Origin: Crassaminicella indica
GTDB taxonomy: Bacteria; Bacillota; Clostridia; Peptostreptococcales; Thermotaleaceae
Length of the DNA: 64,000 nt
Direction: 5' to 3'
Assembly: GCF_019203185.1 (NCBI RefSeq)
Contig: NZ_CP078093.1
Location: 496,001 to 560,000 of the forward strand
This document shows, in pieces, positions 3,350 to 29,231 of the stretch. The number at the start of each line of letters is the position of its first letter. Within the stretch, counting starts at the first letter, position 1. Below the pieces are notes generated by a model that ran no database searches, was not told the DNA's origin, and worked only from the letters and a program-made list of their open reading frames with translations. Both the position numbers and the translations under genes were made by a program.

Positions 3350-3551
3350 TTATTCGTCATCCATAGAAACGACTAATGCTCTATATTCAAGTATTTGAGC
3401 AATGTTTTCTCTTATTAGACTTTCCTTCTTCAGCTCTACAATAACAGGTCTATTATCTCTAGTATCCTTAAACAATAAATCAATGTATCTATTCAGCCCA
3501 TTCCTGCCAATATTAGTTAGTACGAGTTTATTTTGTTAGCTCATCTGTCAT
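3350..3551 (-). pseudogene. frameshifted PD-(D/E)XK nuclease fragment
   Basis: Reading leftwards from an ATG at 3551, the frame gives MTDELT and then hits a stop after a run of four A. Skipping one base restores a coding-like frame from about 3533 to the TAA at 3350-3352. That frame reads NIGRNGLNRYIDLLFKD, then RPVIVELKKESLIRENIAQI, and ends VVSMDDE. The D....VIVELKK pattern is a PD-(D/E)XK core (Asp, then Glu-x-Lys). Only about 65 residues remain, far short of any complete family member, so this is a remnant. It begins 3 bases after the neighbouring truncated gene stops. Evidence is direct translation; the parent family is uncertain. Confidence 0.6.
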
Positions 3552-4534: not shown

Positions 4535-4539
4535 ATCAC
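4535..4539. repeat. 5-bp target-site duplication, copy 1 (ATCAC)
   Basis: ATCAC directly abuts the transposon end that begins TGTA at 4540. The same five bases directly abut the opposite end at 27020-27024. A 5-bp duplication is the Tn7-family signature. Confidence 0.92.
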
Positions 4540-4687
4540 TGTAGGTTTAAAATAAAGTTTGATCAAAATATGCTCTAAAACCATTGAATCTTCGTCAAAC
4601 TTAAAGATAAATTTTAAAACAAAGTTTGATCATTATTCAGTTATCTAGAATTTATTAGATAATTATTTTTAAAACAAAGTTTGATCA
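4540..4687 (+). repeat. transposon left end: three spaced TnsB-type sites
   Basis: Three copies of AAAGTTTGATCA, each preceded by a TTTAAAA(T/C)A-type half, lie at 4554-4565, 4621-4632 and 4676-4687, pointing into the element. The first is fused to the TGTA terminus at 4540. The wide spacing (67 and 55 bp) contrasts with the packed repeats at the other end, as in Tn7. No gene lies between 4540 and the stop at 4821. Confidence 0.88.
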
Positions 4688-6620: not shown

Positions 6621-6754
6621 AGCCTATCTCTTCCCCTCTCGTATTCACTTTCTTTAATCTGCTAAAGAAATTTTCCTTCTCTATTATACCTTCTTGCTAT
6701 AAAAGTTTTAAACAAATAAAACATTCTTGATCTATTTCATTTTTCTTAATTCCT

Positions 6755-7471: not shown

Positions 7472-7486
7472 TTAATAGTAACGGTT

Positions 7487-8293: not shown

Positions 8294-8311
8294 TTTAGAA
8301 TAATTCAACCT

Positions 8312-10234: not shown

Positions 10235-10236
10235 TA

Positions 10237-13200: not shown

Positions 13201-13842
13201 TCTAGCATTTATAAAGCTTTCTTTAATAGAAAAAAAATCCTTCATATCCACCTTGCTTTTAAACTGATCTATTATTATATCTTTAAGTAAAAAACTTTCT
13301 TTCTTAAGATTTTTTGTATTTATCTCAAAGTAATAGTCTTCTACTTCTATTTTCACTTGTCTATATTTCTCTAACAGCATTAAGCCCTTATCTTTTTTTA
13401 TGTTGCTAATATTATTTTCAGAATCCATCATATTGAATTCATCACTATTTAGCTCTATATCCTCCTCTTTATTCAAATATTCAAGTGTTTTTCGTTGTTC
13501 TTCATAGCTTGGGAAATATCTTGGATATAAATTAAAAGAAAAGCTTAGATATCCACTTATCTTTTCTTCCATTGGTTCAACTAAAAATTCCAACCCTAAA
13601 TTAACATTTTTAAAAAGGTTAACTCTTTGTATTTGAAAATCTACCTTATTCTCTTCATTAATATCATTGTTGAATTCTGAATCTGAAAATAATACTCCAG
13701 AGAAAAAACGTCTTGTAGGTTCTTCTCCAATAACTTCTATTTCATTTCTTCCTAAAAGCCCATCTTTTATGACATTATGTAAATGCTTTACTATTTTTAC
13801 CTCGTCATTAATTCTTTTTTCTACTTTTTCATTTTTCATCAT
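10237..13842 (-). CDS. drmA: DrmA-like SF2 helicase (DISARM)
   Basis: 1201 residues. After a 500-residue N-terminal region, Walker A reads LWFPTGGGKTEAYFGL (about residue 507). A zinc-binding pair follows near 620 (HKCPMCNKDL, then HVCTNKDC). The DExH box is LLIQDELHLLKEE (about 755), motif III IIAATATIEAYE, and the C-terminal helicase lobe has LIATSLISHGVDLERI followed by QASSRSSRSHTGL (about 1007), matching motifs V and VI. This is the layout of DrmA, the ATP-dependent motor of DISARM that binds unmethylated incoming DNA. The start MMKNEKVEK has AAGGGG about 10 bp upstream. It overlaps the preceding DrmE-like gene by 14 bp and abuts drmB by stop-start overlap, so the three are co-translated. 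Confidence 0.87.
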   Translation of the reverse strand: MMKNEKVEKRINDEVKIVKHLHNVIKDGLLGRNEIEVIGEEPTRRFFSGVLFSDSEFNNDINEENKVDFQIQRVNLFKNVNLGLEFLVEPMEEKISGYLSFSFNLYPRYFPSYEEQRKTLEYLNKEEDIELNSDEFNMMDSENNISNIKKDKGLMLLEKYRQVKIEVEDYYFEINTKNLKKESFLLKDIIIDQFKSKVDMKDFFSIKESFINARGFVPIYEVPNSEDEFNKMISNIKDENFNIPEWNAEIVIDPITYKDRSGKTLFKIVVSLINKTPKVDISGKEKPTGHPLEFFDCNLSVKVDKNIHRYFEFDGAPKDYKYDKKYKVKGINCVGISEEIKNHIILSTETVPSYFQNHYRTREDLAVKFDDLADKQNTIKVLKQIALEMKKYSSNWQAFINNNGDKEQQLNTKEEVESCIKDMEAFEKEIESFELGIYTLERDDRLMLAFNIMNKIFSEASKYSSWRLFQIVFVVRILPSLLVRELPEKDILSKEIKESASYADVLWFPTGGGKTEAYFGLIICALFYDRLRGKKRGCTAWIRFPLRMLSKNQLDRLAKILIYAEKYRQTSNELLEKGDPFSIGFFAGGSNTDNFVNKRKVTEYMRNEINKKKRMMIHKCPMCNKDLTLEFDNDYWKFMHVCTNKDCFVYKSSLKGKLPLYMTDSEVYRFVPSVLCGTVDKLAILGRYREFSHIFGQVGGFCKKHGYFSDRCIVGTYDEYGACDAKAKETKLYKAQLEEHKKNVFYDPIPSLLIQDELHLLKEELGVLNGHYEGMLNECSRLFGREKFHLPKIIAATATIEAYEKHVKHLYLRRARKYPSMGFKNGESFYATSKPIIKRRLYMGVLSHARSQDEVIGRCLYLYHKEILRLYSQAKNSWKKICLESIKDEKEFFEFISNYDLSVVYVNKKAMGHDVKRRLDESVYLDLKKNINLDFDMHTEILTGDNEMDKIVKVIDKIEADGSYMKYKNKLHTLIATSLISHGVDLERINAFFMAGMPSKYAEYIQASSRSSRSHTGLVLVSFRANDLRERSQYEFFIQNHIFLDRLVDPVPINRFAIKAIERSISGLLAGLLYCVHSQRHKYTLYNCGQYQKYIADQNTKGNRIEDELLESLKRIIGVDSDLFSIVAREKAEKAIEKAFQDKIYILNKQPSTMKIKDENVLNPITSFRDIEEGLTLQSNFETDYILRFAFDEFNKKEGSE

Positions 13843-16603
13843 ATTTCAATAACCCCTTTTTTTTAATCAGATGATAATTGTCTTTGCTAATTACCTTTTC
13901 TAAAATTGCAGAATGCACTAAATATTCCTTTTCGTATTCAAGCTGCTGCACTTCTAGTAATTCTAATACTTCTAATACATCTTGAGTACTTATATAAATA
14001 TCCTTTCCTAGACTAATCCATTCATTGGTATTAATTGTAATATTTGATGAAATATTATTTACTTGGTTCATTATAATTTTTCCTAGAGCTTTGCCTAATT
14101 TGATATATATCCCCCACAGCTCTTTCATTGCCTTGTAAATAGATTTAATACGCCTAGTATAATATTCATCCTTTAAAATTTTTGCTATGGCATATAAATT
14201 TTTTTCATCTCTTACTAACGACACTTTTCCTTCTATCCAATTGCCAATTGTTAAAACTGAAGAAATGTTTCCACCATATGCATTAATTTCTTCTAGTATC
14301 CTTTGATAAATAGCACTTTTACTTTGATATGAACTATAAAATTTCTTCCAAATTAATTTCATCATATCTTGCCATTCATTTACATTAAGCTCAATCCATT
14401 TCATTACTAATGTATTCGATGCCATATTTAAAAGCTCATCAAATATCTCCCTACGTTCCTTTTGCTTGAGCCTTATTAGAATGTCACCTCTTTTAAATTC
14501 AAAAGGTCCTATACTATCAACTTCATCTTTATCAAACCTTTTTACTCTAAATGCTTTATCCCTTGAGACAAATATTAATTGCTCTTCAATCCTTCCTTTT
14601 TTTTCATTTAATTTATTCACATGTAGCTTTACACATGATATATACTCATACCTTTTTTCTGCATAGCTTGTAATATCATAGCTTATCTGCTCACAAATAT
14701 TCATATCTATTTCTTCATCTAATTCATCTTCCATAAGGTTAAATAGCTTTTCATCTTCAAATAATTTATCTATTTTGTCTATTGGCGAATTTTCTTTTTT
14801 TTCATTCTTATACTGCTGCGTTACTTTATAATCTACAATACTTATGGATGTTTTATTATTTTTAGGTACTGTATCCCATATTTTGCTTTCTACTTTAAAT
14901 AAATTATTGAAGGCATTTTTTAAATATTTCACAAAACTTTTATTAAAAACCATATTGATTTGGTAATCAATAATCTTTTTTTCATAAAATCCACATACAA
15001 TATAAAACTTTGTTTTTGCTAAAAAATAAAATGAGCTTAGATATTTTTTATTCCACGGATTTGTTAATATAATAATACTTGGAGCATTATCCTCTTGGTT
15101 AAATATTTCTCTTATTTGTTTTCTTGCCCAATCTGATTGAGTTATGACTTCAATTCTAGATAAGTCTTTCGTACTTAAATATAAAGAAGCTCTTAACCAT
15201 AGTTTATATTCTTGAGCTACTAATTTCTCCCCTACAATAATAGTAATTTTATTTCTGTTAGAAACATTAGCCCTAACGATATTAGAAATAACCTCTCCTC
15301 GAGGACTACCTTCCTTCTTATAGTAGTACTCATATATTTCAAGTATTTTATGCTTTAAATGGGGCATCATAAATTTTTTTATGGTTTCTTCTTCTAAAGT
15401 ATCCGTTGGTATTTTTTCACAAGCATTAATTAATTGTCTTAAAGTAGCCTTTCCCTCTGCTAATCTAGTTCTTTCATACCATACTAAGGGTAAAGGCAAT
15501 GATACTAACTTAATCAACATATCTTTCATTCGCTTAAAGCCTTTACTTAGATTACCTTTTTTAGTATATGATCTCTTTAAAATAATGAAGGCATCTCTTA
15601 TTTTATTTTTCACCTTATTTGCTTCAATGATGTTGTAAATTTTAATATTCGACTCAGCTTTATCTAAATAAGGCAATGAAGCTTGGATATTCCACGATGC
15701 TGTTATGGAATTAGTCTTGAAGCATTCTTTTTTTACAAAAAAATTATTGAAGAGATAGATAGAATTTTGATTTACTGGAATGATATTATTGAAAGTAGCT
15801 ATTGCTTTATATGTTGATTGATCAAAATTAGGAGCTATTGCAATCACATGTTTAGAATGCTCCTGTGCCCATTTTATAATTTGTTCAGCCCTCCCCCTAT
15901 GTCTATAAGGTACTAAATCCACAATGATTACATCTGCCTCTTTCTTAATTTCCTCTGGAAGATTTTTTCTATATGCTCTATATAAAGCAATCCATGGTAA
16001 TGTTCCATCATCTTTGTTTTTTATTTTGCTATTTTCCCTTTTATTGTTAAAGGAAAACTTCTTAAACGTATTTGCTTCAATTGTGTATATATTAAAAAAA
16101 TCCCTTAAAAAATTTCCGTTTATACTGGTTCTCCAAATATGTGATAGCAATTCAATATTATCAGATATTATTAATATCCCTGAACCCACACTGAATTTGT
16201 ATTCATTATTCGATAACAAGCTACTAACTAAATGCTGTAGGATTAGATGATAGGACAATAATAGTGGAAACGCATATGAAAAAGGAGGCATAATAAAAGC
16301 AATATTCCCCTCATGTTTATTATTTTTTGAAAGCATATATGCTTTTAATGATACTGTTAATATAATATTGTCTATCTCATTTAAATTAACTTTAGCTTGT
16401 TTAGATTGAAAATTGATATTATTTATACTTTCAAATAAACAATACTTCTCATGGCTTAACATTCCTCTCCCTAAATCTTCATTTGATAAATCTATTAAAT
16501 TTTTAAAGTACAATTCATGTATCTCTTTATTCACCTGCAAGGATTCTGGAATTATACTACTAAGTGCTTGCTTTTTTCTTTGCTCTGATAATTGTCCATA
16601 CAA
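13829..16603 (-). CDS. DrmE-like DISARM protein
   Basis: About 924 residues if translation begins at TTG 16603, which has GGAGG 8-9 bp upstream; ATG 16627 and TTG 16642 extend the same frame but lack a ribosome-binding site. The N-terminal half resembles a degenerate helicase-like fold with no intact Walker A (GNIAFIMPPFSYAFPLLLS, VIIVDLVPYRHRGRAEQI). Near the C-terminus, an ISSVLTIGNWIEGKVSLVRD segment followed by a long helix (RRIKSIYKAMKELWGIYIKL) fits the end of class 2 DISARM DrmE proteins. DrmE has no assigned biochemical role. The position immediately ahead of drmA, with a 14-bp overlap, supports the call. The alternative, DrmD of class 1, is unlikely because DrmD is an SNF2 helicase with intact motifs, absent here. 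Confidence 0.62.
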   Translation of the reverse strand: MYGQLSEQRKKQALSSIIPESLQVNKEIHELYFKNLIDLSNEDLGRGMLSHEKYCLFESINNINFQSKQAKVNLNEIDNIILTVSLKAYMLSKNNKHEGNIAFIMPPFSYAFPLLLSYHLILQHLVSSLLSNNEYKFSVGSGILIISDNIELLSHIWRTSINGNFLRDFFNIYTIEANTFKKFSFNNKRENSKIKNKDDGTLPWIALYRAYRKNLPEEIKKEADVIIVDLVPYRHRGRAEQIIKWAQEHSKHVIAIAPNFDQSTYKAIATFNNIIPVNQNSIYLFNNFFVKKECFKTNSITASWNIQASLPYLDKAESNIKIYNIIEANKVKNKIRDAFIILKRSYTKKGNLSKGFKRMKDMLIKLVSLPLPLVWYERTRLAEGKATLRQLINACEKIPTDTLEEETIKKFMMPHLKHKILEIYEYYYKKEGSPRGEVISNIVRANVSNRNKITIIVGEKLVAQEYKLWLRASLYLSTKDLSRIEVITQSDWARKQIREIFNQEDNAPSIIILTNPWNKKYLSSFYFLAKTKFYIVCGFYEKKIIDYQINMVFNKSFVKYLKNAFNNLFKVESKIWDTVPKNNKTSISIVDYKVTQQYKNEKKENSPIDKIDKLFEDEKLFNLMEDELDEEIDMNICEQISYDITSYAEKRYEYISCVKLHVNKLNEKKGRIEEQLIFVSRDKAFRVKRFDKDEVDSIGPFEFKRGDILIRLKQKERREIFDELLNMASNTLVMKWIELNVNEWQDMMKLIWKKFYSSYQSKSAIYQRILEEINAYGGNISSVLTIGNWIEGKVSLVRDEKNLYAIAKILKDEYYTRRIKSIYKAMKELWGIYIKLGKALGKIIMNQVNNISSNITINTNEWISLGKDIYISTQDVLEVLELLEVQQLEYEKEYLVHSAILEKVISKDNYHLIKKKGLLKYDEK

Positions 16604-16878
16604 AACAAAAACCTCCAAAGGTTGCATTTTATTAGAATACAAACGTATTTATAATGTTTATTATTTCGACATTTGAAATAGAATCCCCTTCATATTTTTA
16701 CATATTTAATCATAATATGTATTTTTTACATGTTACTGTTTCTATATGAAATACATTCATTCTTAAAATCATTGAATTTCCTTTTAATAATGTAACAGTC
16801 ATATATTCATTAATAAGCTTATACCCAATAATTATTATATTTTGAAACATTGGCTCAATAATGTTTATCTAATTATAA

Positions 16879-16914
16879 AAGCTAATTAAGAAGATTCCAC
16901 TTCCTAATTAGCTT
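16879..16914 (-). terminator. terminator-like stem at the methyltransferase stop codon
   Basis: Arms AAGCTAATTA and TAATTAGCTT form a 10-bp stem, followed on the minus strand by TTATAATTAG. It begins at the methyltransferase stop codon (16913-16915). The tail is not a pure T-run, so efficiency is uncertain. Together with the roughly 310-bp gap up to the DrmE-like start it suggests that the methyltransferase and the drmE-drmA-drmB-drmC genes are separate transcripts. The rest of the gap (16604-16878) is AT-rich with no gene and no clear promoter that I can single out. Confidence 0.5.
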
Positions 16915-18178
16915 ATTCATAAAAATATTTAAAATTTTTCTTAATCTGGGCCTTTGTCGTAAATTTTGGTTTTCTTGGTTCCCCCTTAGATATAATTAAT
17001 ATCCTATCAACCTTAGTTGCTTCTCCCTTTCTTTCCTGCCCCCAAATTTTAGTAACCTTGTTATTGCCTTCTATTTTATCCTCTATAATCTCAACAAGCT
17101 GCAAATTAGTATATGGCTCTACATATTCCCAAACTTCTTCAGCTAGCTTTAACTCCTCCACATCTCCTATTACTATACAGGCTAATGCACCTGGCTTTAA
17201 TATTCGTTCCCAGCCACATATCAAATTCCTCATAAATATTAAATATTCCTCTAGCTTTAAACGATCTGATAATTTTATATTCGAGCCTTCTTCATAAGCT
17301 TTGTTTATTTTCAGCTGATCATCTACCATATCAAAATCTTTACCCAACATCCAAAGTCGTATCCAATTATATTTTCCATATCGAATTAATTTTAAATATG
17401 GAGGACTAGTTACAATTAAATCTATAGCTTCATCCTTTAATATTCTTCTATAGTTATTAATTTTTAAAGCATCATATTGATAGCTTTTACCTTTTCTTAA
17501 AGCCCTGTTCCATGGATATGTTTTAGCTATTCTATCTCTTAATAATTCAAATACATTTTGTTGTAATTTTACTAAATTATTTTCGGCTATATATTTTCTA
17601 ACATAATTAGGTGACATAGAAAAGGTATTGGGCATAGATATTGATAAATACATAGATGTGCCATCCTTTCTATGCTTGCCATGCATTATACCAAGCAAAA
17701 TAGCCATAATATATCGATCTATTTTCCTACGTATATCTAATTCATTCTTTAAGTATAACAGCATAGGCAATGTTACTTCCTCGTCATATAACATTCTTAT
17801 ATCAGGGTCAATCCTTAGAATACTCTCTCTAGAAATATATGTATTATTAAAATTTTCTTCTAATTCACATAACCGACGCATTATATTTTCATATTTAGGA
17901 ATATAGGTTTTAGCTCCAGTAAGAACACAAGCTAAAGGATTTAAATCATTACCAATTCCTACTCTATTATTTAAAGCAGCTTCTAAAACAGTTGTACCTC
18001 TGCCTGAAAAGGGATCATATACCTTTTCACCTTCCTCCGTAAATTGCTTTATAAAATAGTTTGGTAAAGAAGGGGGAAACATAGCTAAGTACGAGCAAAT
18101 ATTATGTGCTGGATTTTTCCACTTTTTTTTATTTGTTTTCCATATTGGCTTCAACCAAGCACGTTGCTTTCGAGCCAT
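16913..18178 (-). CDS. amino-methyltransferase (N4-cytosine or N6-adenine DNA methylase) of the DISARM-like locus
   Basis: 421 residues. The N-terminal region HNICSYLAMFPPSLPNYFI leads into motif I, VYDPFSGRGTTVLEAA (about residues 55-70), the AdoMet site. The catalytic motif IV is IVTSPPYLKLIRYG (about residue 260). The order, motif I before motif IV, is the alpha-like layout; TSPPY is most common in N4-cytosine and some N6-adenine enzymes. It would modify host DNA so that the DrmA-DrmB complex spares it. Characterised class 2 DISARM uses a C5-cytosine methylase and class 1 a much larger adenine methylase, so this small amino-methylase is atypical. It is divergent from the small gene at 18326 and ends in a terminator-like stem 310 bp ahead of the DrmE-like gene. 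The family is secure; base specificity is not. Confidence 0.85.
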   Translation of the reverse strand: MARKQRAWLKPIWKTNKKKWKNPAHNICSYLAMFPPSLPNYFIKQFTEEGEKVYDPFSGRGTTVLEAALNNRVGIGNDLNPLACVLTGAKTYIPKYENIMRRLCELEENFNNTYISRESILRIDPDIRMLYDEEVTLPMLLYLKNELDIRRKIDRYIMAILLGIMHGKHRKDGTSMYLSISMPNTFSMSPNYVRKYIAENNLVKLQQNVFELLRDRIAKTYPWNRALRKGKSYQYDALKINNYRRILKDEAIDLIVTSPPYLKLIRYGKYNWIRLWMLGKDFDMVDDQLKINKAYEEGSNIKLSDRLKLEEYLIFMRNLICGWERILKPGALACIVIGDVEELKLAEEVWEYVEPYTNLQLVEIIEDKIEGNNKVTKIWGQERKGEATKVDRILIISKGEPRKPKFTTKAQIKKNFKYFYE

Positions 18179-18761: not shown

Positions 18762-20243
18762 CTAACTATTTTCTATAATTTTCTCATATATATACTCACA
18801 CTTATCGTATATACTACTTTTATCATACTTATGCCTAATTCTCTTAGAAAATATACCTTTTCCTTCTAATTTCTTCAAGCCTTGTGAGTCCCAAGTACCA
18901 TTTTTATTCACTAGCCCAAGAATTACTTTTAAATATACATTTCCCCAATTTATTGCTTTCACTGCATATAATAATAGTATAGATAAAGACCTTTCTTCTC
19001 TTTCTACTTCTAGCAAGCTAATTTCTTTTCCATTATTCATTGTTATCTTTCCTACTACATATTGTCTCTTTGTTTTTCCATCATGAAGCTTAGAAAATTT
19101 CTTACCTTTCTTTCCTTCTGGTAAAGCATTTATCATAACCTGGACATCTTTAATATTTGGTTTACTCTTTAATAGCTTCATAATCTCAATAAATTCTTCT
19201 AGCTCACCTTCTACACTTATATCATCTACGCTTTTATACTCTAATCCCCTAGCTCTGTCAATTCCCCCAGTATCCGCTGTAGTTCTTAAAGCTTCATTTT
19301 CGATTTCATAAAGCTTAGTATTTTCATCTTCATTGTCTCTAACATAGCTTTCTCCAATCTTTACTCTATTGATTTTACTATCCTTTGAGTAAGCATGCTT
19401 TATATTAGATGTTTCAACAAAATCTGACTCCGAATTTTTCGATCCATCTACTTTAGGATCTAATTTCTTATCATCCGTTTCCTTTAATGCTCTGTATTTT
19501 CTTTTTTTAGGTTGGTTGATTTTTCTAATATGCTTAATATATTTTGAACTTATAAATATCTCTTGTGCATTGATTTCCTTTTCCCTAAATTCCATGATTT
19601 CTAGAATTCTTATAATATGCTTCTTCTTTCTTATTCTCGCTTTAATATTAAAGCGATTAAATAAAAAATCAAAGCTTATATTTTCCTTTAACCATAGCTT
19701 CATTCCTACTTGATTAAACATTTTAAGTATACTCTCATTAGTTATGATCCAAGCTAAATGCTTCACATATTCTGTATTTAATAGCTTTCTCTCATATTCA
19801 TCAAAAAAATTTATATGTAAATTTCTTTGTTTATCATAGCTGTAAATAAAGTATTTATCAAGAGAGTCTAATTCAACAATTCTATTGAGTAAAAATCTAT
19901 TTGTAGCAATAATAGCTCTTATAATCTCTAATGCAGGAATTCTATATTCAACCTGGTCTTTGTGTCCCACAAATATTTTTGTAGGAATGTCTTTTTTGCT
20001 TCCTTCAGCTTCTAGTTCTAAAAAGTCTTCTACTATTTCAAATGCAATATCACTTAAATCTAAATCAATAATAGTAGCATCCTTTTTAATCTCACTATTG
20101 TTGATATTCCCATCCTTATAATATCTCCCAAAGGCTAAAAAATGGATAGTTGCCCAATCAAAAGTAATTTTTTTAATTTCCTTGTATCCCTTAAAATATA
20201 CATCTAGCATCCATTTATTGTTGAGCTTATAGGGCTTATCCAT
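18762..20243 (-). CDS. tnsE: TnsE-like transposition targeting protein
   Basis: From ATG 20243 the protein has 493 residues; Tn7 TnsE has about 540. YRIPALEIIRAI near residue 95 matches the equivalent YHIP segment of Tn7 TnsE. The C-terminal domain has LPEGKKGKKFSKLHDGKTKR followed by KEISLLEVEREERSLSILLL, the conserved DNA- and clamp-binding region. A low-complexity linker (about 245-320) separates the two. TnsE directs insertion into replicating conjugal plasmids. Oddly, the same frame continues upstream for about 24 codons with convincing coding sequence (IIVKNWPFQQGEKVKLYW) but no ATG, GTG or TTG, and ATG 20243 lacks a well-spaced ribosome-binding site. The true N-terminus may use a rare start or be reached by frameshifting from tnsD (see the G7 run). 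Confidence 0.85.
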   Translation of the reverse strand: MDKPYKLNNKWMLDVYFKGYKEIKKITFDWATIHFLAFGRYYKDGNINNSEIKKDATIIDLDLSDIAFEIVEDFLELEAEGSKKDIPTKIFVGHKDQVEYRIPALEIIRAIIATNRFLLNRIVELDSLDKYFIYSYDKQRNLHINFFDEYERKLLNTEYVKHLAWIITNESILKMFNQVGMKLWLKENISFDFLFNRFNIKARIRKKKHIIRILEIMEFREKEINAQEIFISSKYIKHIRKINQPKKRKYRALKETDDKKLDPKVDGSKNSESDFVETSNIKHAYSKDSKINRVKIGESYVRDNEDENTKLYEIENEALRTTADTGGIDRARGLEYKSVDDISVEGELEEFIEIMKLLKSKPNIKDVQVMINALPEGKKGKKFSKLHDGKTKRQYVVGKITMNNGKEISLLEVEREERSLSILLLYAVKAINWGNVYLKVILGLVNKNGTWDSQGLKKLEGKGIFSKRIRHKYDKSSIYDKCEYIYEKIIENS

Positions 20244-20317
20244 CCAATATAGCTTAACCTTTTCTCCTTGTTGAAAAGGCCAATTCTTTACAATTATGTT
20301 TTCTTTACCCCCGATGC

Positions 20318-22198
20318 TTATCCCCCCCTATTTATGTATGCTTCTAAGCTGTCCTTGATTTTATTAAAAGCCTTCGTTCTAATCCCTGCTAGTCTTTGGA
20401 TTTCCCATAATCGAACAGGCTCTTTTCTAGCTATTTTTTCATCTATTATTTTCTTGGATCTCCTTATTTGAAAGTCCGTTACGCTTTCCAAAATACTATC
20501 TAAAAATTCCTTTGTTTTTGGTAGCTTATCTAAATTTTTTTCAAGAGTAGGAAGAATACCTAACATTTTTCCTATATTAGATTTTGTGATTCTTATAGGC
20601 TTTTGGCTTGCTAATAGCTTCCTATGAGCTTCTTTTACAGCTTCTACTATTTCTGTATCTCTTACATCCCAAGCTACTCTTTGATCACTTTTATAATCAA
20701 TCTCCTGCTTATTCATCTTCTTTGGAAGGTTTGAAAAAAGCCATTCCTTTTCATGACTATATAAATAAGAGTACTCCTTCTGACATAGTCTTCTAATTTG
20801 CGTTCTTGAAAGACTTGGCTGCTCTCTTATGGTACCTATAATCTTATCCTTATATGCTTGTATATCAATTTCTTTTCCCTGAGCTTTATTAACTTTTACT
20901 TCCTTTACAATTGCTTTAGAGCCTTCAAAATAGTTAAGCCCTAATTTTTTATCAAAATTTTTTATTGTTTTAGGATCACACTTCATTAATCTAGCCACTT
21001 CTCTTAATCCATACTTTTCTTCTTTTAGATATGCTTTGAGTTTATTTTCCCATACATGTCCAAAGGCTTTAATTCTTCCCACCCTATATCGATCTTCTTC
21101 AAATTGATCTGGTCCTTTTCTAGAGTAAACAAAGCCACAAGTACAAGAAAAGGTTCCTACTGGCAGCCTAGTTTTATAATCAGCAGTTATTTTCAAATTG
21201 GTAACAACATCCTTTTTATAATGCTCTGCAACAGGATTCAAGCATGGCCAGGGACTTTCGCCAAAGGGAGAATAGCCTTCTTCCTTTGACTTGAAAAAAT
21301 GTTTTATATCCTCAGTTAGAAAATCGATAAAAAGTATATGTCTTATAGGATGTACTGTTCTTTTACTGTTTCTTGAAATGACCTTCAACCAATTATATTC
21401 ATCGTCCTGATCTATATCGGATTCAAGCTTATTTAGTAGCTCCTTTCCATAAAACCAAATAAACGCATTGTATAGCTTCTTTTGCTGTATTGTCTTATTG
21501 ACCGATAAAAAACCCTTTTTATCAAGAAGCTCTTTATACTTCTTTGCTACAAACTCTTTATCAAATGCTGCTAGATCATTATCTAGTAAATAACGTGCAG
21601 CTTGAGCTATTTTCACTAATTCTTTATCAATAGCTTTTCTTTCTATATCCAGCTCTAGTAACTTTTCATCTAGTCTTATAAATTCAATTCTACTTGCTTT
21701 TGTTTTATCTATTTTATATTTCTTTAGCTTTACTTCATGCTCAGGGCAAACAAACACCCCTTGGACTTGATGTATTCTGTGGATATAGGCTTCTCCATAT
21801 TTCTTTATCTCTTTCTGCGAGCATAGTGGACAATAATATATACCTTCTTTCTTGCATATACCTCCTGCTACCATACCAAGCCTTGTATAAATACCTTGTC
21901 CATCCTCAAATTTCATGGTATTTATTAAAGTATTTTTCCTTTCCTTTGGTAAAAACGGAGCATAAAAAGGAAAAAGTGTATGGTTTTTTATAAGGTAATC
22001 TGACGTATATTTTTTCCCTAGCTGCTTTGCTAAATGCTCTAGCTTGCATGGTAAATATAAGCTTGGGATAACACTATCCCTACCAAATAATTCTCTTAAG
22101 GTATCCTTGTAATCAATATTACCTATATAGTAGTGATACCTAGCTATAGCTCCATATAATAATTCATCTTCATGGGGGTCGGTGAAAAATGTAAGCAT
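20318..22198 (-). CDS. tnsD: TnsD/TniQ-family attTn7-binding protein
   Basis: 626 residues. The opening MLTFFTDPHEDELLYGAIAR is the TniQ/TnsD start. A zinc finger with C123-x2-C126 and C151-x2-H154 (YYCPLCSQ, then VFVCPEHEV) matches the CCCH finger of Tn7 TnsD. The later part has helix-turn-helix-like segments (LREVARLMKCDPKTIKNFDK; SRTQIRRLCQKEYSYLY) for sequence-specific binding. TnsD recognises the 3' end of glmS and recruits TnsC; the element's position 20 bp past glmS agrees with this. It starts 3 bp after tnsC ends and finishes on seven consecutive G (minus strand) just before its stop codon, which is unusual in such AT-rich DNA. Confidence 0.93.
   Translation of the reverse strand: MLTFFTDPHEDELLYGAIARYHYYIGNIDYKDTLRELFGRDSVIPSLYLPCKLEHLAKQLGKKYTSDYLIKNHTLFPFYAPFLPKERKNTLINTMKFEDGQGIYTRLGMVAGGICKKEGIYYCPLCSQKEIKKYGEAYIHRIHQVQGVFVCPEHEVKLKKYKIDKTKASRIEFIRLDEKLLELDIERKAIDKELVKIAQAARYLLDNDLAAFDKEFVAKKYKELLDKKGFLSVNKTIQQKKLYNAFIWFYGKELLNKLESDIDQDDEYNWLKVISRNSKRTVHPIRHILFIDFLTEDIKHFFKSKEEGYSPFGESPWPCLNPVAEHYKKDVVTNLKITADYKTRLPVGTFSCTCGFVYSRKGPDQFEEDRYRVGRIKAFGHVWENKLKAYLKEEKYGLREVARLMKCDPKTIKNFDKKLGLNYFEGSKAIVKEVKVNKAQGKEIDIQAYKDKIIGTIREQPSLSRTQIRRLCQKEYSYLYSHEKEWLFSNLPKKMNKQEIDYKSDQRVAWDVRDTEIVEAVKEAHRKLLASQKPIRITKSNIGKMLGILPTLEKNLDKLPKTKEFLDSILESVTDFQIRRSKKIIDEKIARKEPVRLWEIQRLAGIRTKAFNKIKDSLEAYINRGG
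20322..20328 (-). other. G7 run at the end of tnsD: possible frameshift or slippage site
   Basis: On the minus strand the last tnsD codons read AGG GGG GGA TAA. A -1 slip on the seven G, or one extra G in the transcript, gives AGG GGG GGG ATA AGC and continues without a stop directly into the tnsE frame. Direct observation of sequence; programmed slippage is inference. Confidence 0.5.
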
Positions 22199-22201
22199 TT
22201 T

Positions 22202-23899
22202 TTATTCCGCCTTTATAAACTCCTTTACAGGATCTTTAATATATCCTTTTTGCTTAAGTAGTTCATAGGCATGTACCTTTTTTTGCTTTGCAATTTTGAA
22301 TATTTTCCTTAAATCCTTTTCTTCATAGGGTACATCCTTACGGATATTTTTCCCTATTTTCTTTTTTTCATTAGCATTGATTGCTTTTTTGATGACTTCT
22401 GCTTTTATTACATTGAAATCATCATCTACTCCAAATTTTTGAACTGTTCTTTTCACCAAATCCCCTAATTCCTTTTCAGTAAGCTCATCAAAGATCCCCA
22501 ATGTACATACTTCTACTATTAGGTTCTCTACTATATTATTTCTTTTCATTTCAAAATATTTTTCTTGATGCTTTGCCATTTCCTTAATCTTTCCTGCTAA
22601 ATCAATATCTCTTTTATGACTGAAGGAAATATCATCTAAATTTATGGCTATGTCTTCATAGTTATTCATCTGTTCCCTATTATTGCTTCTAAGTGCCTTG
22701 ATCATTGGTTGAATCATGTGTAAATCTTCCTTTGAAGCTTTTTTGATGATTGCCTTTGTTAACTTTTCCTTATCAGTATTCAAGGCTCTTTCCTGTGCTA
22801 GAGTAAATAAATTCACTGCTACAGAAGTAATTCCCTGACATTGATCATAGAATAAATCCTTCATTTCCTGTGTAAGCTCTGTTTTCTCCCTAAGCCACTG
22901 AAACTCCCAAAGGGTTTCAATAAAAAAATCCCATTCATCACTTTCTCGACTCATACGATCCCATATAATATTTCCTTCACTTCCAGCTCTTCTAGCCTGT
23001 CTAAAATCCTTTTTAAATATTTTAAGGGCTTTAAAGGTTCCTATTAGTACTGTTGGTATTCCTACTGTGTTTGTTAAGGTTACAAAGAAATTCAGCATTT
23101 CATCAGAATCATTTTTTGCATTTATTAAATGTTGAATCTCATCTATGACCAAAATTCCAATTCCATATATATTAGCAAGTGATGTCATGTGTAGCAACAT
23201 AGAAGAAGTGATCCGATTTAAATACCCATACTTTTCAAGATATCGAGTCCCAAGAAGATCATCTATAGCCTTGAAAAAGCTTTTACAAAGGGTTGATAAG
23301 CTTCCGTCATAGGGACAATCAATTTTTAACCACACAAGCTGTGTTCTGCTTAATAGCTTTCCCTTATACTCTTCATGCTTGATGATTTGAGGATACATCA
23401 ACAGTAGCCTTTCTATTGCTGTAGTTTTTCCTATCCCAGATATACCAATGATAGATAGAGAATCTGCTGTAGAACGTATATGCTCCATATTTGATATTAA
23501 AGCTTGCTCTCTTTCTTCCTTTTTTTCAGAACGCACTTCATTTAATATCTTTAATCTTTCAAAATAACTTTTATCCAAAGGATTTCTTGCTAAATATCCT
23601 CTTCTAATCATTGAAGATAGCTTACCTTCTATAGAAAAATGATCTGGCAGTGGCTGTATAAAATTTTTAAGTCTTTTAATCATATGAAATCTTAGATTTT
23701 TACTTTTAAATCTTTCATTTTCTTGAAGAATTGGATATCTTGTAAATTGATCTATAATCTTTTCCTCTGTAAAAATTGCAGGTAACGCTTCTATATATGG
23801 ATTATCCGCATAATCAATAATTTCTTGCTCTTTGTATTCTGCAAGCTCTATCCTTCCCTTGAGTAAAGGATTACTTTTACTTCTTTCCAAGCTTCTCAT
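22202..23899 (-). CDS. tnsC: TnsC-like AAA+ regulator ATPase
   Basis: 565 residues, close to Tn7 TnsC's 555. Walker A IIGISGIGKTTAIERLL (about residue 153), Walker B IGILVIDEIQHLI (about 246), sensor-like TVLIGTFKAL (about 290). TnsC forms an ATP-dependent filament that links the target selectors TnsD or TnsE to the TnsAB transposase and mediates target immunity. The start overlaps the end of tnsB by 23 bp, and tnsD begins 3 bp after its stop, so the genes are translationally linked. The N-terminal region (residues 1-130) contains the usual TnsA/TnsB contact region by position only. Intact by motif. Confidence 0.94.
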   Translation of the reverse strand: MRSLERSKSNPLLKGRIELAEYKEQEIIDYADNPYIEALPAIFTEEKIIDQFTRYPILQENERFKSKNLRFHMIKRLKNFIQPLPDHFSIEGKLSSMIRRGYLARNPLDKSYFERLKILNEVRSEKKEEREQALISNMEHIRSTADSLSIIGISGIGKTTAIERLLLMYPQIIKHEEYKGKLLSRTQLVWLKIDCPYDGSLSTLCKSFFKAIDDLLGTRYLEKYGYLNRITSSMLLHMTSLANIYGIGILVIDEIQHLINAKNDSDEMLNFFVTLTNTVGIPTVLIGTFKALKIFKKDFRQARRAGSEGNIIWDRMSRESDEWDFFIETLWEFQWLREKTELTQEMKDLFYDQCQGITSVAVNLFTLAQERALNTDKEKLTKAIIKKASKEDLHMIQPMIKALRSNNREQMNNYEDIAINLDDISFSHKRDIDLAGKIKEMAKHQEKYFEMKRNNIVENLIVEVCTLGIFDELTEKELGDLVKRTVQKFGVDDDFNVIKAEVIKKAINANEKKKIGKNIRKDVPYEEKDLRKIFKIAKQKKVHAYELLKQKGYIKDPVKEFIKAE

Positions 23900-26039
23900 C
23901 CCTTTTTCTTTTGATTTTTTCCATCAAGGTTAATCGCCTTGTATCCTGTTCTTCCTCATCCTCTTTTACAGCTTCTTTATTAAAGGCTTTTATGATTCCT
24001 TCCTTTTCTTCTCTTCCTATTTCAAAGGCTTCTTTTTTTCTGTTAATTTCTTTTTCTAAAGCTCTATTTTCTCTGATTCCTTTAAGCTTCTTTGATTTTG
24101 AAATAGTTTCTACAATAGTATTTTTCTTTTCTTTCTCTGCTTTTTTTACAAGGTCTTCTATTTCCTTATCTAAATCTATATTTAATTGATTTTGTTTATC
24201 CTTTTCCCATTCTATAAGCTCTTCCTTTAATTCTTCTTGAAATATAATTTCTTCTAGTCTACAATCCTTATATTGAAGGCTTTTCTTTAAAAGATGACAT
24301 ACTTCATAGCCTTTTCCGTCTTCATTAAGAATATATATAGCATTCATATTTCTAGGGTCATATACAACATCAACCCATCTCTGCTTAGCTTTTACAAACC
24401 ACTGCTCCTCAATGGCTTTTTTAGAGCTATAGAATAGCTTCTTAAACTTTAATCCTGCTCGTGATATGCTTGCTTTACCCTTTGGTAGAAGATTTAGCTT
24501 CATAATATCCCTATCTATGACTCTTAATCTTCCTTTTTTATTTTTAATTCCCCAATTCCATAAATTGATTGGAGTTGGATTTAATTCATCAGAAATCATT
24601 TCTTTATCCATATTGTAATTGGTAATAATCTTATGATTATGATGCAGTACCATCTTTATAAGTATTTGAGTAAATTCTTCTAGTGTTAGTGTTGCATCTA
24701 ATCTATAATCTCGATCTCCTCTTTCCCTAAACTCCTTTTGTATTGCCCCTGGTGTTTTATGCTTGAGCTTTTCATTAACGGTTCTAAAGCTTCTCTCAAC
24801 AATTCCCTTTAAATCTCCTCTGTAAGGCGGTGTATTTTCTATTTTCACATTTAAATTATTTATTAAATTTTCAACAGAATAGCCTTCAAATTCTCCTCGG
24901 TCAGCTATGATTGTTTCTGGTAGATGCTCACATGGCCATTGTTCCTTTGTAATATGAATATCATACTCCTTACAGAATTCTACCTTATCTGCTATCATAT
25001 TATCTAATGCCATCATAGCCCCCATCCAAGATGGCCCTTCTAAACCTGTATAAATCCCTGTAACCAACCTAGAGTACACATCTATTACCATATATATTAT
25101 GGGTCTACCTATAATCCTATTTCTGTTCAAGGAGCTTACAATATATATATCTGCTACTGTAGCATCAATCTGAAATCTAGTTCCTGGTCCATCCGTTTCC
25201 ATAGCAGTAGTTCCTAATATAGGTCTATACTTCAATTTATATTCCTTTTTGCTCCCCCTAAAGGTTACATTCTTTTGTATATCCTCGTAATTTTTAAACC
25301 AGTAATAAAATTGTCTATAGGAAGGAATTCTAGCTTTACTCCATACCTTATATTTAATTTCTCCATTCTCTACATATTTGTCTGAAAAGAATTCCTTTAG
25401 CATAGAATTATATGCAGCCTTTATAGTAGGTTTTTCCTTCTTTCTATAAAATTTATCTATAGATAGGTTTATAATTTTCTTTATATCCTCTGTTATATTT
25501 ATTCCTTCTTGTACTTCTCCCATATAATCTACTTTTTTAGGCCTTCCAACCTTCTTGCTTTTTAAATTTCTTTCTTTCCCCTTTGCTCCTGAATTTTTGT
25601 AATCAGGTAATAGAGCATTTTTAGTCATTCCTCTTTCCCAAAATCTATTAAATATTCTTTTTAGACTAACTCTAGCTATGTTTTCTTTATCTGCTATCTC
25701 TTTAAATAGCTTTTCTCTTCCCTTTTTCTCTAGAAAAGCTTCTTTATTACTCTCCCAATATTTTTTTATGATCTCCCATTGTTGATCTCTCTTATATCTT
25801 GCATTTTCTGATAGATCCTTTTCATCAATGTTATTAAGATATGGATCTGGAATTTTAATAAGTACTCCAGTTGCAATTTCTTCTTCTAATTTGTCTATAT
25901 GCTCTTTTTTTGGCATGCACATGGTCATGCCCATTATTACATAGTATAAATACATGCTTTCATGATCAATATATAATATCCTTAGCTTTTCTCCATTTTC
26001 TTTATTGGTATATTGGAGTGTCATATTCTCTAGAATCAT
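23877..26039 (-). CDS. tnsB: TnsB DDE transposase
   Basis: 720 residues, near Tn7 TnsB's 702. An N-terminal DNA-binding region (about 60-260, with a helix-turn-helix-like IADKENIARVSLKRIFNRFW) precedes the RNase H-fold core. Acidic catalytic residues lie in RFQIDATVADIYIV (about D291), TIIADRGEFEGYS (about D378) and GDLKGIVERSFRTVNEKL (about E413). TnsB binds the end repeats and cuts and joins the 3' strands. A basic, Glu/Lys-rich C-terminal tail, as in Tn7, would contact TnsC. It overlaps tnsA by 4 bp (ATGA) and tnsC by 23 bp. All three catalytic positions are present. Confidence 0.95.
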   Translation of the reverse strand: MILENMTLQYTNKENGEKLRILYIDHESMYLYYVIMGMTMCMPKKEHIDKLEEEIATGVLIKIPDPYLNNIDEKDLSENARYKRDQQWEIIKKYWESNKEAFLEKKGREKLFKEIADKENIARVSLKRIFNRFWERGMTKNALLPDYKNSGAKGKERNLKSKKVGRPKKVDYMGEVQEGINITEDIKKIINLSIDKFYRKKEKPTIKAAYNSMLKEFFSDKYVENGEIKYKVWSKARIPSYRQFYYWFKNYEDIQKNVTFRGSKKEYKLKYRPILGTTAMETDGPGTRFQIDATVADIYIVSSLNRNRIIGRPIIYMVIDVYSRLVTGIYTGLEGPSWMGAMMALDNMIADKVEFCKEYDIHITKEQWPCEHLPETIIADRGEFEGYSVENLINNLNVKIENTPPYRGDLKGIVERSFRTVNEKLKHKTPGAIQKEFRERGDRDYRLDATLTLEEFTQILIKMVLHHNHKIITNYNMDKEMISDELNPTPINLWNWGIKNKKGRLRVIDRDIMKLNLLPKGKASISRAGLKFKKLFYSSKKAIEEQWFVKAKQRWVDVVYDPRNMNAIYILNEDGKGYEVCHLLKKSLQYKDCRLEEIIFQEELKEELIEWEKDKQNQLNIDLDKEIEDLVKKAEKEKKNTIVETISKSKKLKGIRENRALEKEINRKKEAFEIGREEKEGIIKAFNKEAVKEDEEEQDTRRLTLMEKIKRKRDEKLGKK

Positions 26040-26884
26040 GATATGTTCAGCTCCTTATTTAGCTCTTCCCTTGATAACTGGACTTTCATCACTTTATTTA
26101 TATCCAAAGGCTGAGACAAGTCTACCTTTAATATTTTTCTTATGAGCAAATGCTTAAACATACATATTCCTGTCCCTGCTGCTAAAAATAAATCCTTATC
26201 AAACTGACTTGAAATGCTTCTTATACTTTCCTTGCTATCTATAACTCGTCTAATATATTCAACAAGTATATCTCCTATATACTCTTTATCTAGCTCTTTT
26301 AGAGAATCTATTTCATCAATATTATAATAGCTGTATATATAGCTTATATTCTTAGCCATAGTATTATTAATTTCTTTTTCTGTAGCAATGCCCCAATCAA
26401 TCCCTTGCTTTTCCCAATATCGTCTTTCAATCTCAAATTTTTCTATAACCCTCTCATCCATGAGTTTCTCTGAAGGCTTTATTGTTCTTGCTACATCTAT
26501 GTTTTTACCATCTACTCTTTTAGTTACTAAAAAATCCGTAGTCATTACTGTATATTCATTTGTCCTTGGATCAGTAGGATGCTTGATACCTAATTCATCA
26601 GCAATTAGGATTGTTTCTTCTATTGGTAATAAAGGGAATTGCTCTCTGATGTCTATTACTTCATCTGAAAAATCTGAAATATAAAAATAATTTTTTTCTA
26701 GATCTGATAGAAAATCATATTGTCGATTAATTTTGATTCCAACTAACCTACTTTCTCTTCCTGTTGAAGGCACATCCTGAATTAAAAGCCATGGTTTATA
26801 GGCTTCTTCTATACCTTGTCCTCGCCCTTCTTTGATAAGCTTTTCTATTCTTTCTCTGTTTATATATCTTTCTCTTTTACTCAT
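26036..26884 (-). CDS. tnsA: TnsA endonuclease subunit
   Basis: 282 residues against 273 in Tn7. The restriction-endonuclease-like active site is visible: E63 in DFLSDLEKNYF, D117 in VMTTDFLVTKR and K136 in DVARTIKPSEKL, nearly the positions of E63, D114 and K132 in Tn7. TnsA cuts the 5' strands so that, with TnsB, the element moves by cut-and-paste rather than by cointegrate formation. A C-terminal helical domain (residues 165-282) fits the TnsA C-terminal domain that binds TnsC. It is the first gene inside the glmS-proximal end. The ribosome-binding site GAGGTGA is 9 bp ahead of ATG but is buried in a 15-bp stem (26890-26933). Confidence 0.95.
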   Translation of the reverse strand: MSKRERYINRERIEKLIKEGRGQGIEEAYKPWLLIQDVPSTGRESRLVGIKINRQYDFLSDLEKNYFYISDFSDEVIDIREQFPLLPIEETILIADELGIKHPTDPRTNEYTVMTTDFLVTKRVDGKNIDVARTIKPSEKLMDERVIEKFEIERRYWEKQGIDWGIATEKEINNTMAKNISYIYSYYNIDEIDSLKELDKEYIGDILVEYIRRVIDSKESIRSISSQFDKDLFLAAGTGICMFKHLLIRKILKVDLSQPLDINKVMKVQLSREELNKELNIS

Positions 26885-26889
26885 AAAGA

Positions 26890-26933
26890 AAAATCACCTC
26901 TTTGCATTTATTCTAACACAAAGAGGTGATTTT
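26890..26933 (-). promoter_or_regulatory. RBS-sequestering hairpin with an extended -10 in its loop, tnsA leader
   Basis: Perfect 15-bp arms (CAAAGAGGTGATTTT at 26919-26933 and its complement at 26890-26904) with a 14-base loop. The arm nearer tnsA contains its GAGGTGA. The stem is followed on the minus strand by TTCTTT, so it may also terminate transcription. The loop (26905-26918) contains TGTTAGAAT, an extended -10; a transcript starting there would lack the first arm and leave the ribosome-binding site free. Read-through RNA from glmS would include both arms. Confidence 0.65.
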
Positions 26934-26937
26934 AATT

Positions 26938-27019
26938 CAAACTTTATTGAAAACATTCATTCTTTATTGTAAATAATCAAACTTTGTTGTAAATATTCAA
27001 ACTTTATTGTACGAATACA
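26938..27019 (-). repeat. transposon right end: four abutting TnsB-type sites, 20-bp period
   Basis: Copies of C(A/T)(A/T)(A/T)CTTT(A/G)TTG start at 26938, 26958, 26978 and 26998, an exact 20-bp step. The outermost runs to the TACA terminus at 27019. Read inward on the minus strand they share AATAAAGTTTG with the left-end sites. Dense sites here and spaced sites at the other end mirror Tn7 right and left ends. TnsB binding would cover any promoter for tnsA. Confidence 0.9.
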
Positions 27020-27024
27020 ATCAC
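27020..27024. repeat. 5-bp target-site duplication, copy 2 (ATCAC)
   Basis: ATCAC directly follows the transposon terminus, 20 bp from the glmS stop codon, matching 4535-4539. Confidence 0.92.
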
Positions 27025-27044
27025 CAACTATCAACAACTAACCC

Positions 27045-28874
27045 CTATTCAACAGTTACACTTTTTGCTAAATTTTTTGGCTTATCCACATCACACCCTC
27101 TAGCTACTGCAATATAATATGCTAAGATTTGTAGTGGAATTACACTTAATATTGGACTAAGCTCATCTAATGTATCTGGAATATAGATAACCTTATCTGC
27201 TGATTTTTCTATTTCTTTATTCCCTTGTTTTGCAACACCTATCACATAAGCACCTCTTGCTCTTACTTCTTGAATGTTTGAAAGCATTTTATCATAAAGC
27301 TTATCTTGTGTAGCAAGGGCTATCACTAATCTACCCTCTTCAATAAGTGCAATAGTTCCATGCTTTAATTCTCCTGCTGCAATAGCTTCTGAGTGAATAT
27401 AAGAGATTTCTTTTAATTTTAATGATCCTTCGTAGGCTACATAAACATCTAATCCTCTACCAATATAGAATACATTTTCACTATTGAACTGTTCGTCTGC
27501 AAGCTGTTGAATAACTTCATTATTTTCTAATATCTTTTCAATCTTACCCGGCATAGCTTTCAATTCTTCAATATATTTTTTATATTCTTCATTTGTCAAA
27601 CTCCCCTTAGTCATTGCCATATGAAGAGCTATTAAATACATAGATACAAGCTGAGTTGTGTATGCCTTTGTTGAAGCTACAGCAATCTCAGGTCCTGCCC
27701 AAGTATAGAATACATCATCAGATTCTCTTGCTACAGATGAACCGACTACATTGACTACTGATAAAATTCTTGCACCTTTTCTCTTTGCTTCTCTTAATGC
27801 TGCAAGTGTATCCAAAGTCTCTCCCGACTGACTTACTGCAATAAACAATGTATTTTCATCAATAAATGGCTCTCTATATCTAAATTCTGATGCAACCTCT
27901 ACATCTACAGGAATCTTTGCAAATTTTTCAATAGCATATTTTCCAATAAGTCCTGCATGATATGCAGTACCACAAGCTACAATATACACCTTATTAATCT
28001 TATCTAAATCATCTTTCGTAAGCTTAATACCATCAAGTACTATATTGTCTTCTTTGTCTAACCTTCTGTGAAGAGTATCATATACTCCCTTTGGCTGCTC
28101 ATTAATTTCTTTCATCATAAAATGAGCATAGCCTTCTTTTTCTGCTGCTTCTGCATCCCAAGTAACTTTAAATACATCTCTTTTTACTTCTTGTCTTAAT
28201 TCATTAAATATCTTCACTCCATCTTTTGATAGAACTACTATTTCATCATTCTCAATCAAATACATATCTTTTGTATATTTAAGAAGTGCTGGTATATCTG
28301 ATGCAATAAAGTTTTCATTTTCTCCAATTCCTACAATCAAAGGACTGTCTTTTCTTACCGCTACGATTTTATCTGGTTCGTCTTTGCAGATTACACCTAT
28401 TGCATAAGCTCCTTCCATCTTTTCAATTGCTTTATATACTGCATCTAATAAATCGCCTTCATAAAAATAATCTATTAAGTGTGCGATTACTTCTGAATCT
28501 GTTTCAGATTTAAAATGATCTCCATTAATCTCAATTAACCATTCTTTTAATTTCATATAGTTTTCAATAATCCCGTTGTGAATCAGTGCAATGCTTCCAG
28601 AGCAATTTGTATGAGGATGAGAATTCACATCTGACGGCTCCCCATGAGTTGCCCATCTTGTATGCCCAATCCCAATAGTTCCTTGTATTTTTTCTTTATT
28701 TAAATGCTCTTTTAATATACTCATTCTTCCTTTAAATTTTCTAACCTTTATTTCTCCTTCATCAAAAATCGCAACACCTGCTGAATCATATCCTCTATAT
28801 TCAAGCTTTGATAATCCATTTATCAAAATAGGTGCTGCCTGTTTTTCTCCTATATATCCAACGATTCCACACAT
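27045..28874 (-). CDS. glmS: glutamine-fructose-6-phosphate aminotransferase (isomerizing)
   Basis: 609 residues, full length. It makes glucosamine-6-phosphate from fructose-6-phosphate and glutamine, the first step of amino-sugar and peptidoglycan precursor synthesis, in the cytosol. It starts MCGIVGYIG, with Cys2 as the glutaminase nucleophile; the glutaminase domain spans about 1-225. Two SIS domains follow (VACGTAYHAG, AVSQSGETLDTLAAL near residue 345, and WAGPEIAVASTKAYTTQL). The C-terminus KNLAKSVTVE is the usual one, so the TnsD-recognised 3' end is intact and the transposon did not damage the enzyme. A glmS ribozyme precedes it. Its natural terminator has been moved 22 kb away by the insertion. 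Confidence 0.97.
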   Translation of the reverse strand: MCGIVGYIGEKQAAPILINGLSKLEYRGYDSAGVAIFDEGEIKVRKFKGRMSILKEHLNKEKIQGTIGIGHTRWATHGEPSDVNSHPHTNCSGSIALIHNGIIENYMKLKEWLIEINGDHFKSETDSEVIAHLIDYFYEGDLLDAVYKAIEKMEGAYAIGVICKDEPDKIVAVRKDSPLIVGIGENENFIASDIPALLKYTKDMYLIENDEIVVLSKDGVKIFNELRQEVKRDVFKVTWDAEAAEKEGYAHFMMKEINEQPKGVYDTLHRRLDKEDNIVLDGIKLTKDDLDKINKVYIVACGTAYHAGLIGKYAIEKFAKIPVDVEVASEFRYREPFIDENTLFIAVSQSGETLDTLAALREAKRKGARILSVVNVVGSSVARESDDVFYTWAGPEIAVASTKAYTTQLVSMYLIALHMAMTKGSLTNEEYKKYIEELKAMPGKIEKILENNEVIQQLADEQFNSENVFYIGRGLDVYVAYEGSLKLKEISYIHSEAIAAGELKHGTIALIEEGRLVIALATQDKLYDKMLSNIQEVRARGAYVIGVAKQGNKEIEKSADKVIYIPDTLDELSPILSVIPLQILAYYIAVARGCDVDKPKNLAKSVTVE

Positions 28875-28969
28875 ATTAATTCTCCTCTCAAAATATTAAT
28901 TTTTATTTTTGACAATAAAATACCGTGGGTAGAATTTTTAAAAATTTTCCTACCTTTTTACATAAAATC

Positions 28970-29144
28970 CACGCAAGCTAATAAATATCCATCACCCAAG
29001 CCTATTTGTCCCTTCGATCACTCGAAGGTTTTGTAAGCTCTTTATCGGTGGTGACACACCGCAGGGTATCCGCCGAAAAACTCGATAAACCCTGTCCTCG
29101 TCAACTTAAATCCTTTTTCCGATCGGATTTTAAGTTCTGGCGCT
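28970..29144 (-). ncRNA. glmS ribozyme (glucosamine-6-phosphate-activated self-cleaving riboswitch)
   Basis: Minus-strand sequence begins AGCGCCAGAACTTA (from 29144). It is followed, after a variable P1/P2 stem, by GTTGACGAGGACAGGG, TTATCGAGTTTTTCGGCGGA and TACCCTGCGG, the conserved catalytic core of the class. A downstream stem, ACCTTCGAGTGATCGAAGG, fits P4. Cleavage is expected just 5' of GCGCC at 29143. It lies about 100 bp ahead of glmS on the same strand. When glucosamine-6-phosphate is high, the mRNA is cut and degraded, lowering GlmS. The 3' boundary is approximate. Confidence 0.92.
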
Positions 29145-29231
29145 TTTATTTTATATATTGTTGTATTTTTTCTCCTATAGACCTCACCCCTTTCTGCATT
29201 TTCTTATTTATTCATATATAAGAAAATACCT

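Follow-up and report, generated by a model that had tools for sequence, protein, structure and literature searches.

A terminator hairpin before tnsA in a glmS-targeting Tn7 element of Crassaminicella indica that probably encloses the tns promoter

Protection of transposase genes from transcription that reads in from outside is known from several mobile elements. IS10/Tn10 is said to be protected in this way, with the folded read-through RNA hiding the ribosome-binding site (RBS) of the transposase gene, as Davis, Simons and Kleckner reportedly described in 1985. IS200 reportedly carries both a terminator and an RBS-masking structure upstream of its transposase gene, as two separate structures, in an account ascribed to Beuzon et al. 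in 1999. Terminators directly upstream of transposase genes have also been surveyed as mobile attenuators, which are thought to stop expression when the element lies in a transcribed region (Naville and Gautheret 2010, PMC2965389, which cites both of the papers just named); the text of that survey mentions neither tnsA nor glmS. In the right end of VchCAST (Tn6677), a palindrome 97-107 bp from the end possibly promotes tnsABC transcription (Walker 2023, PMC10201428), and what is reported for the sequence of one of its arms is an effect on the orientation of integration, not protection from read-through. In the Tn7 literature searched, we came across no account of a hairpin such as the one described here, or of a terminator that encloses a promoter, and this arrangement is apparently undescribed in Tn7; an early paper may nevertheless describe it.

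We analyzed 64,000 nucleotides of the C. indica genome (contig NZ_CP078093.1, positions 496,001 to 560,000; hereafter, the window, whose first letter is position 1). The hairpin in question sits inside a complete Tn7-type element of 22.5 kb (4540-27019), not in the host glmS region. This element, made up of TnsABCDE and DISARM, is inserted 20 bp past the glmS stop and encodes TnsA, TnsB, TnsC and TnsD homologues in that order (Pfam matches: TnsA, Mu-transpos_C for TnsB, TniB/AAA for TnsC, TnsD and TniQ, and TnsE_C). On the minus strand, tnsA (26036-26884; Pfam TnsA N and C domains) is proximal to glmS and is followed by tnsB, tnsC, tnsD and tnsE (18762-26039; Pfam), and glmS itself (27045-28874, minus strand; assigned by its orthologues) lies upstream and points at tnsA. 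The element has TGT...ACA ends. The right terminus, TGTATTCG, reads in from 27019 (27012-27019, minus strand) and is followed by four TnsB-type repeats 20 bp apart (26935-27008, minus strand), the last of which supplies TTGAAT. The left end (4540-4686, plus strand) consists of a TGTAGG terminus at 4540 and three TnsB-type repeats (4551-4686) that run opposite to those of the right end, and a 5-bp target duplication, ATCAC, flanks the element at 4535-4539 and 27020-27024. The cargo (4821-18178) is a DISARM-type defense cluster with DrmA, DrmB and DrmC (PADLOC), a DrmE C-terminal domain (Pfam) and an N6/N4 DNA methylase, together with one protein that has a weak PD-T7-3 match. A glmS ribozyme (RF00234, 118 bits; 28987-29155) lies upstream of glmS, which places the source of read-through itself under glucosamine-6-phosphate control.

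Immediately 5' of tnsA, the minus strand reads TTAAAATCACCTCTTTG-TGTTAGAATAAATG-CAAAGAGGTGATTTTTCTTT-ATG. Arm 1 of the hairpin (AAAATCACCTCTTTG, 26919-26933) pairs with arm 2 (CAAAGAGGTGATTTT, 26890-26904) in 15 of 15 Watson-Crick pairs around a 14-nt loop (TGTTAGAATAAATG, 26905-26918), all on the minus strand, and so the perfect 15-bp stem claimed by an earlier, sequence-only reading of this DNA held up. The same reading had correctly placed the tnsA RBS, GAGGTGA, in the stem: it occupies 26894-26900, within arm 2. When the transcribed minus strand was folded, 19 pairs formed and the loop shrank to 6 nt, at -23.4 kcal/mol. A T tract (TTTTTCTTT, 26885-26893, minus strand) overlaps the end of arm 2 and abuts the ATG at 26884, giving the stable hairpin with a T run directly after it that defines an intrinsic (Rho-independent) terminator. 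The stem G+C content of only one-third is a point against the explanation favored below. The fold of the tnsA leader had a z score of -4.5, and none of 200 shuffles folded equally well; no other terminator-like site was present in 26000-29000. The hairpin is thus real. An Rfam search of the region returned no family that covers it, and two matches to animal miRNA families, both far below threshold, were dismissed as chance.

We consider it likely, at a probability of roughly 0.7, that this hairpin is an element-borne intrinsic terminator with the tns promoter nested inside it, by which read-through RNA would be terminated and RBS-masked and self-initiated RNA would be spared. The terminator would lie between the right end and tnsA, and the nested promoter would use the last TnsB site as its -35, arm 1 as the spacer, the loop as the -10 and the beginning of arm 2 as the start, with the first transcribed bases predicted at about 26903. 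Arm 1 would then be present only in RNA arriving from upstream. RNA reading through from glmS would contain both arms, fold and terminate at the U tract, and in any that escaped termination the stem would sequester the tnsA RBS. Transcripts initiated by the element itself would lack arm 1, pass the hairpin site without termination and expose the RBS. The hairpin would be a new terminator for glmS as well. As in IS10, read-through RNA would fold and hide the RBS, and self-initiated RNA would be free of the upstream arm; unlike in IS10, the hairpin here also has a terminator tail, the -10 lies in the loop and read-through would come from a fixed neighbor, glmS. Compared with the two structures of IS200, one hairpin here could do both jobs. 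Mobile attenuators likewise place a terminator before the transposase gene, but the survey of them describes neither a nested promoter nor a fixed target (PMC2965389).

The arrangement recurs in relatives. From genome and plasmid collections we gathered 154 distinct regions upstream of tnsA, in an opportunistic survey with thresholds set by ourselves. Within 150 nt upstream of tnsA, a strict terminator hairpin occurred in 38 of 44 glmS-adjacent elements (glmS within 400 nt) and in 46 of the remaining 110, against 0.7 and 1.5 expected from dinucleotide shuffles, although these counts include close kin, are inflated by kinship and do not represent independent events. Further glmS-adjacent elements (L149, with the canonical Tn7 end, L178 and L179) have bulged hairpins by folding that the strict definition missed, and in all 10 Tn7 relatives from Gammaproteobacteria, with arms that differ, a fold forms immediately ahead of the ATG (z from -3.6 to -8.2). 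The hairpin was absent from several more distant Tn7-like elements (L187, L188, L153, L155 and L156). On a TnsA tree, hairpins that directly precede the start codon are found mainly in three groups, namely the window together with L002 and L010, 20 Bacilli loci that form a clade, and the Tn7 clade of Gammaproteobacteria; in a sister clade of 10, the hairpin mostly lies farther from the start. A like hairpin also occurs on plasmids away from glmS, which indicates that it moves with the element, and in both the glmS and the plasmid copies it is, like a mobile attenuator (the 5' terminator of an insertion sequence), a terminator carried by the element upstream of its transposase gene.

Several side observations came from the same survey. 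In one case (L012, ~5866 in G003:C24), tnsD of a glmS-adjacent Tn7 element is interrupted by a second element, which has a TnsA 94% identical to that of the window and a hairpin that would there face the tns operon of the outer element. Six clostridial elements with no glmS found alongside (L025, L028, L023, L037, L024 and L026) share a conserved stretch before tnsA, GCCATTGACACAGACATC...GTCAGTGGCATTTTTT, that has no sequence relation to the other hairpins. Broken copies of tnsA were found in many Bacilli genomes (L160-L176; G741, G430 and G493), often several per genome and some still with the right end and hairpin, which suggests repeated insertion and decay. In a genome of the same genus without a TnsA match, two TnsB-type repeats beside glmS (AAATAAAGTTTGATC and AAATAAAGATC; L229, ~3350-3450) are possibly the remnant of a Tn7 right end that has been lost.

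The position behind glmS gives the hairpin a second potential role. The insertion leaves 22.5 kb between glmS and its old downstream DNA, which now lies past the left end and contains hairpins with T runs (AGCAAAAAAATCTTTTTTGCT; GACACGTAA...TTACGTGTCTTTTTT), and therefore parts glmS from its likely terminator. The tnsA hairpin, ~110 nt past the glmS stop, is the first strong hairpin there, and with so much DNA placed after glmS it probably doubles as a replacement terminator for that gene. It might even be kept mainly for this purpose, to make the insertion harmless to the host, with low tns expression as a by-product. Such an account would fit the terminator-like hairpins displaced past the left end, the genomes of the same family in which the glmS terminator lies within 15 nt of the stop and would be disrupted by insertion (L233 and L235), and the insertion of Tn7 into the glmS terminator in E. 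coli, as given in the title of Gay 1986, cited in PMC2918618. It leaves unexplained, however, the -10 in the loop, the RBS in arm 2 and the retention of the hairpin in plasmid copies away from glmS, and we regard it as unlikely to be the main reason. Both purposes would be served by one and the same device, and this rival is consistent with a terminator that also shields tns.

The promoter is less evident in the window than in its relatives. The loop does contain an extended -10, TGTTAGAAT (26910-26918, minus strand), as the sequence-only reading had stated, and its match is fair; its nearest -35, TTGAAT, is poor and lies at a 19-bp spacing, and the site ranks only eighth best in the upstream 150 nt. 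Better consensus promoters lie upstream of the hairpin, at 27034-27006 (TTGATA-17-TACAAT) and 26993-26966 (TTTACA-16-TACAAT), and transcripts from either would run into the hairpin and be blocked in their turn. In the clade of the window, one of three loci had a nested -10 with a -35 at 16-18 bp, against 0.9 in shuffles. The other clades gave a different picture, with such a promoter in 10/10 loci of the near clade (3.0 expected), 34/39 of the Bacilli clade (4.1 expected) and 7/10 of the gammaproteobacterial Tn7 elements (1.1 expected), or 51 of 59 loci outside the clade of the window. When the whole upstream region was considered, the -10 of the best sigma-70 site fell in the hairpin loop at 39 of 52 L013-like loci (2.9 expected). 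It did so at only 1 of 21 hairpin loci that were neither glmS-adjacent nor L013-like (1.9 expected), and there the nested promoter fails. In relatives, the -35 (TTGATA, TTGCAC or TTGTAA) sits where the last TnsB repeat ends and arm 1 forms the spacer; bound TnsB would thus cover the promoter. TnsB is known to be autoregulated, and a TnsB site that overlaps the nested promoter is consistent with this. The earlier claim that self-initiated RNA starts past the first arm thus gains from the nested promoters of relatives, but the promoter evidence in the window itself is weak.

The upstream promoters of the window also bear on a further explanation, in which the hairpin attenuates, or controls the translation of, RNA from tns promoters in the right end in response to TnsB or a host factor, and glmS read-through is incidental. 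Those promoters do have the better consensus, but in relatives the best promoter lies inside the hairpin and not upstream of it, we noticed no alternative antiterminator pairing, and the element's own RNA would always be blocked. We therefore give this explanation little weight.

For the preferred reading of a promoter nested in a terminator, the fate of the RBS could be followed by folding. In the window, opening the RBS costs 16.7 kcal/mol in the long RNA and 1.6 kcal/mol when the RNA starts at arm 2; in silico, the site is thus predicted to be sequestered when RNA reads through and open when the element starts its own RNA, as IS10-type protection requires. The corresponding costs in the Bacilli clade were 12.5-20.2 and 4.2-7.8, a smaller gain because the short RNA keeps some structure. 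The RBS lies inside arm 2 in the window, in L010, in the Bacilli clade and in several gammaproteobacterial elements, and masking was found at 46 of 84 strict-terminator loci, mostly from one Bacilli clade. In the sister clade, the RBS lies past the T tract, unmasked by the hairpin, and the hairpin, T tract and nested promoter are retained. This suggests that termination would be the function shared between lineages and RBS masking an addition to it. The logic of IS10-type protection, which the sequence-only reading had put forward, is therefore supported by relatives, but the emphasis moves to the terminator, with RBS masking limited to some lineages.

That reading had further presented the hairpin as a device of this transposon. 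The arrangement is present in this element but not special to it, as the canonical E. coli Tn7 has the same one. There, as in the window, a hairpin (AGTCCAGT-TATGCT...-ACTGGACT, followed by TTTTG) lies between the TnsB sites and tnsA, whose ATG is 136 bp from the end in both, with the hairpin at 95-128 in Tn7 and 87-130 in the window. Within this hairpin lies the -10, TATGCT, separated by 17 bp from a TTGTAA with which the last TnsB site ends. The arms are unrelated to those of the window, and the Tn7 stem is shorter and bulged and its RBS weaker. Among 5,426 E. coli genomes, at least 110 carry this right end together with its hairpin. In an E. coli K-12 MG1655 record (CP010444; L149, 2491-2640), the Tn7 right end and hairpin lie behind glmS with no TnsA annotated, probably as a mini-Tn7 insertion.

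Pairing between the arms is conserved where their sequences can be aligned. We aligned 10 sequences, those of the window and of relatives with the ACCTCTT/AAGAGGT core, and observed that 97.9% of cells were paired, compared to 89.3% in shuffled alignments (none of 500 as high) and 45.7-64.5% when the arms were slid against each other. Four pairs had changed on both sides, double-change cells numbered 12 against 2.8 in shuffles, and one stem pair occurs as A-U, C-G and G-C; the compensatory changes that had been proposed as a check are therefore present. Covariation in an automatic MAFFT alignment of the Bacilli clade was marginal (21 of 500 shuffles), because odd-length hairpins shift the register, and with the arms registered by hand, a registration that leans on structure, 30-33 of 33 sequences were paired at every pair. 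The gammaproteobacterial arms are unrelated in sequence (for example, AACCCAGC/GCTGGGTT, AAACACCTGTT/AACAGGTGTTT and GGCCAACATCGACT/AGTCGATGTTGGCC), yet all end a few nucleotides before the ATG. The same form in different letters across lineages argues for selection on the structure of the hairpin.

The replacement of the arms also weighs on the idea that the inverted repeat acts as DNA, either as a right-end site for a transposition protein or in control of orientation. The hairpin is close to the TnsB sites, and the single palindrome arm of the VchCAST right end provides a precedent (PMC10201428). Against this, the arms differ wholly between lineages and what persists is the pairing, the T tract and the distance to tnsA; moreover, in E. 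coli Tn7 a right end of 90 bp is enough for transposition (PMC2918618), and the hairpin, which begins at 95, is thus outside the minimal end. We judge a role as DNA to be quite improbable.

We compared the hairpin with a host background of 864 kb (800 kb of genome plus the window) containing 526 candidate gene starts. A strict terminator hairpin anywhere in the preceding 150 nt was found at 74 of 526 ordinary host starts, but only one of the 526, that of tnsA, has a hairpin whose T tract ends no more than 12 nt from the start codon. Counting perfect inverted repeats (15 bp or more, loop of 20 or less), we found 39 in the 800 kb of host, as ordinary terminators would give, and none in six shuffles of the window. 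A chance hairpin without function, for which the AT-rich sequence and a perfect 15-bp repeat about every 20 kb of host might speak, can be dismissed given its unique position among the 526 starts, the conserved pairing and the recurrence in 38 of 44 elements.

Overall, and with somewhat less assurance than for the window itself, we lean toward the view that Tn7 elements that target glmS, over a range that extends from Firmicutes to Gammaproteobacteria and takes in canonical Tn7, have in common a promoter-in-terminator module placed between the TnsB sites and tnsA. One segment would end glmS RNA, block read-through expression of tns and start tns RNA under TnsB control, and selection would keep the module as its sequence is replaced. 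Tn7 lands behind a gene that must be transcribed and has its transposase genes in the same orientation as that gene, and how it escapes activation by glmS was not described in the literature searched. If the view is correct, the nested promoter and terminator would explain both this escape and how glmS copes with the loss of its terminator. Some Tn7 vectors may also carry an unexpected promoter and terminator, as the hairpin of the mini-Tn7-like CP010444 insertion suggests.
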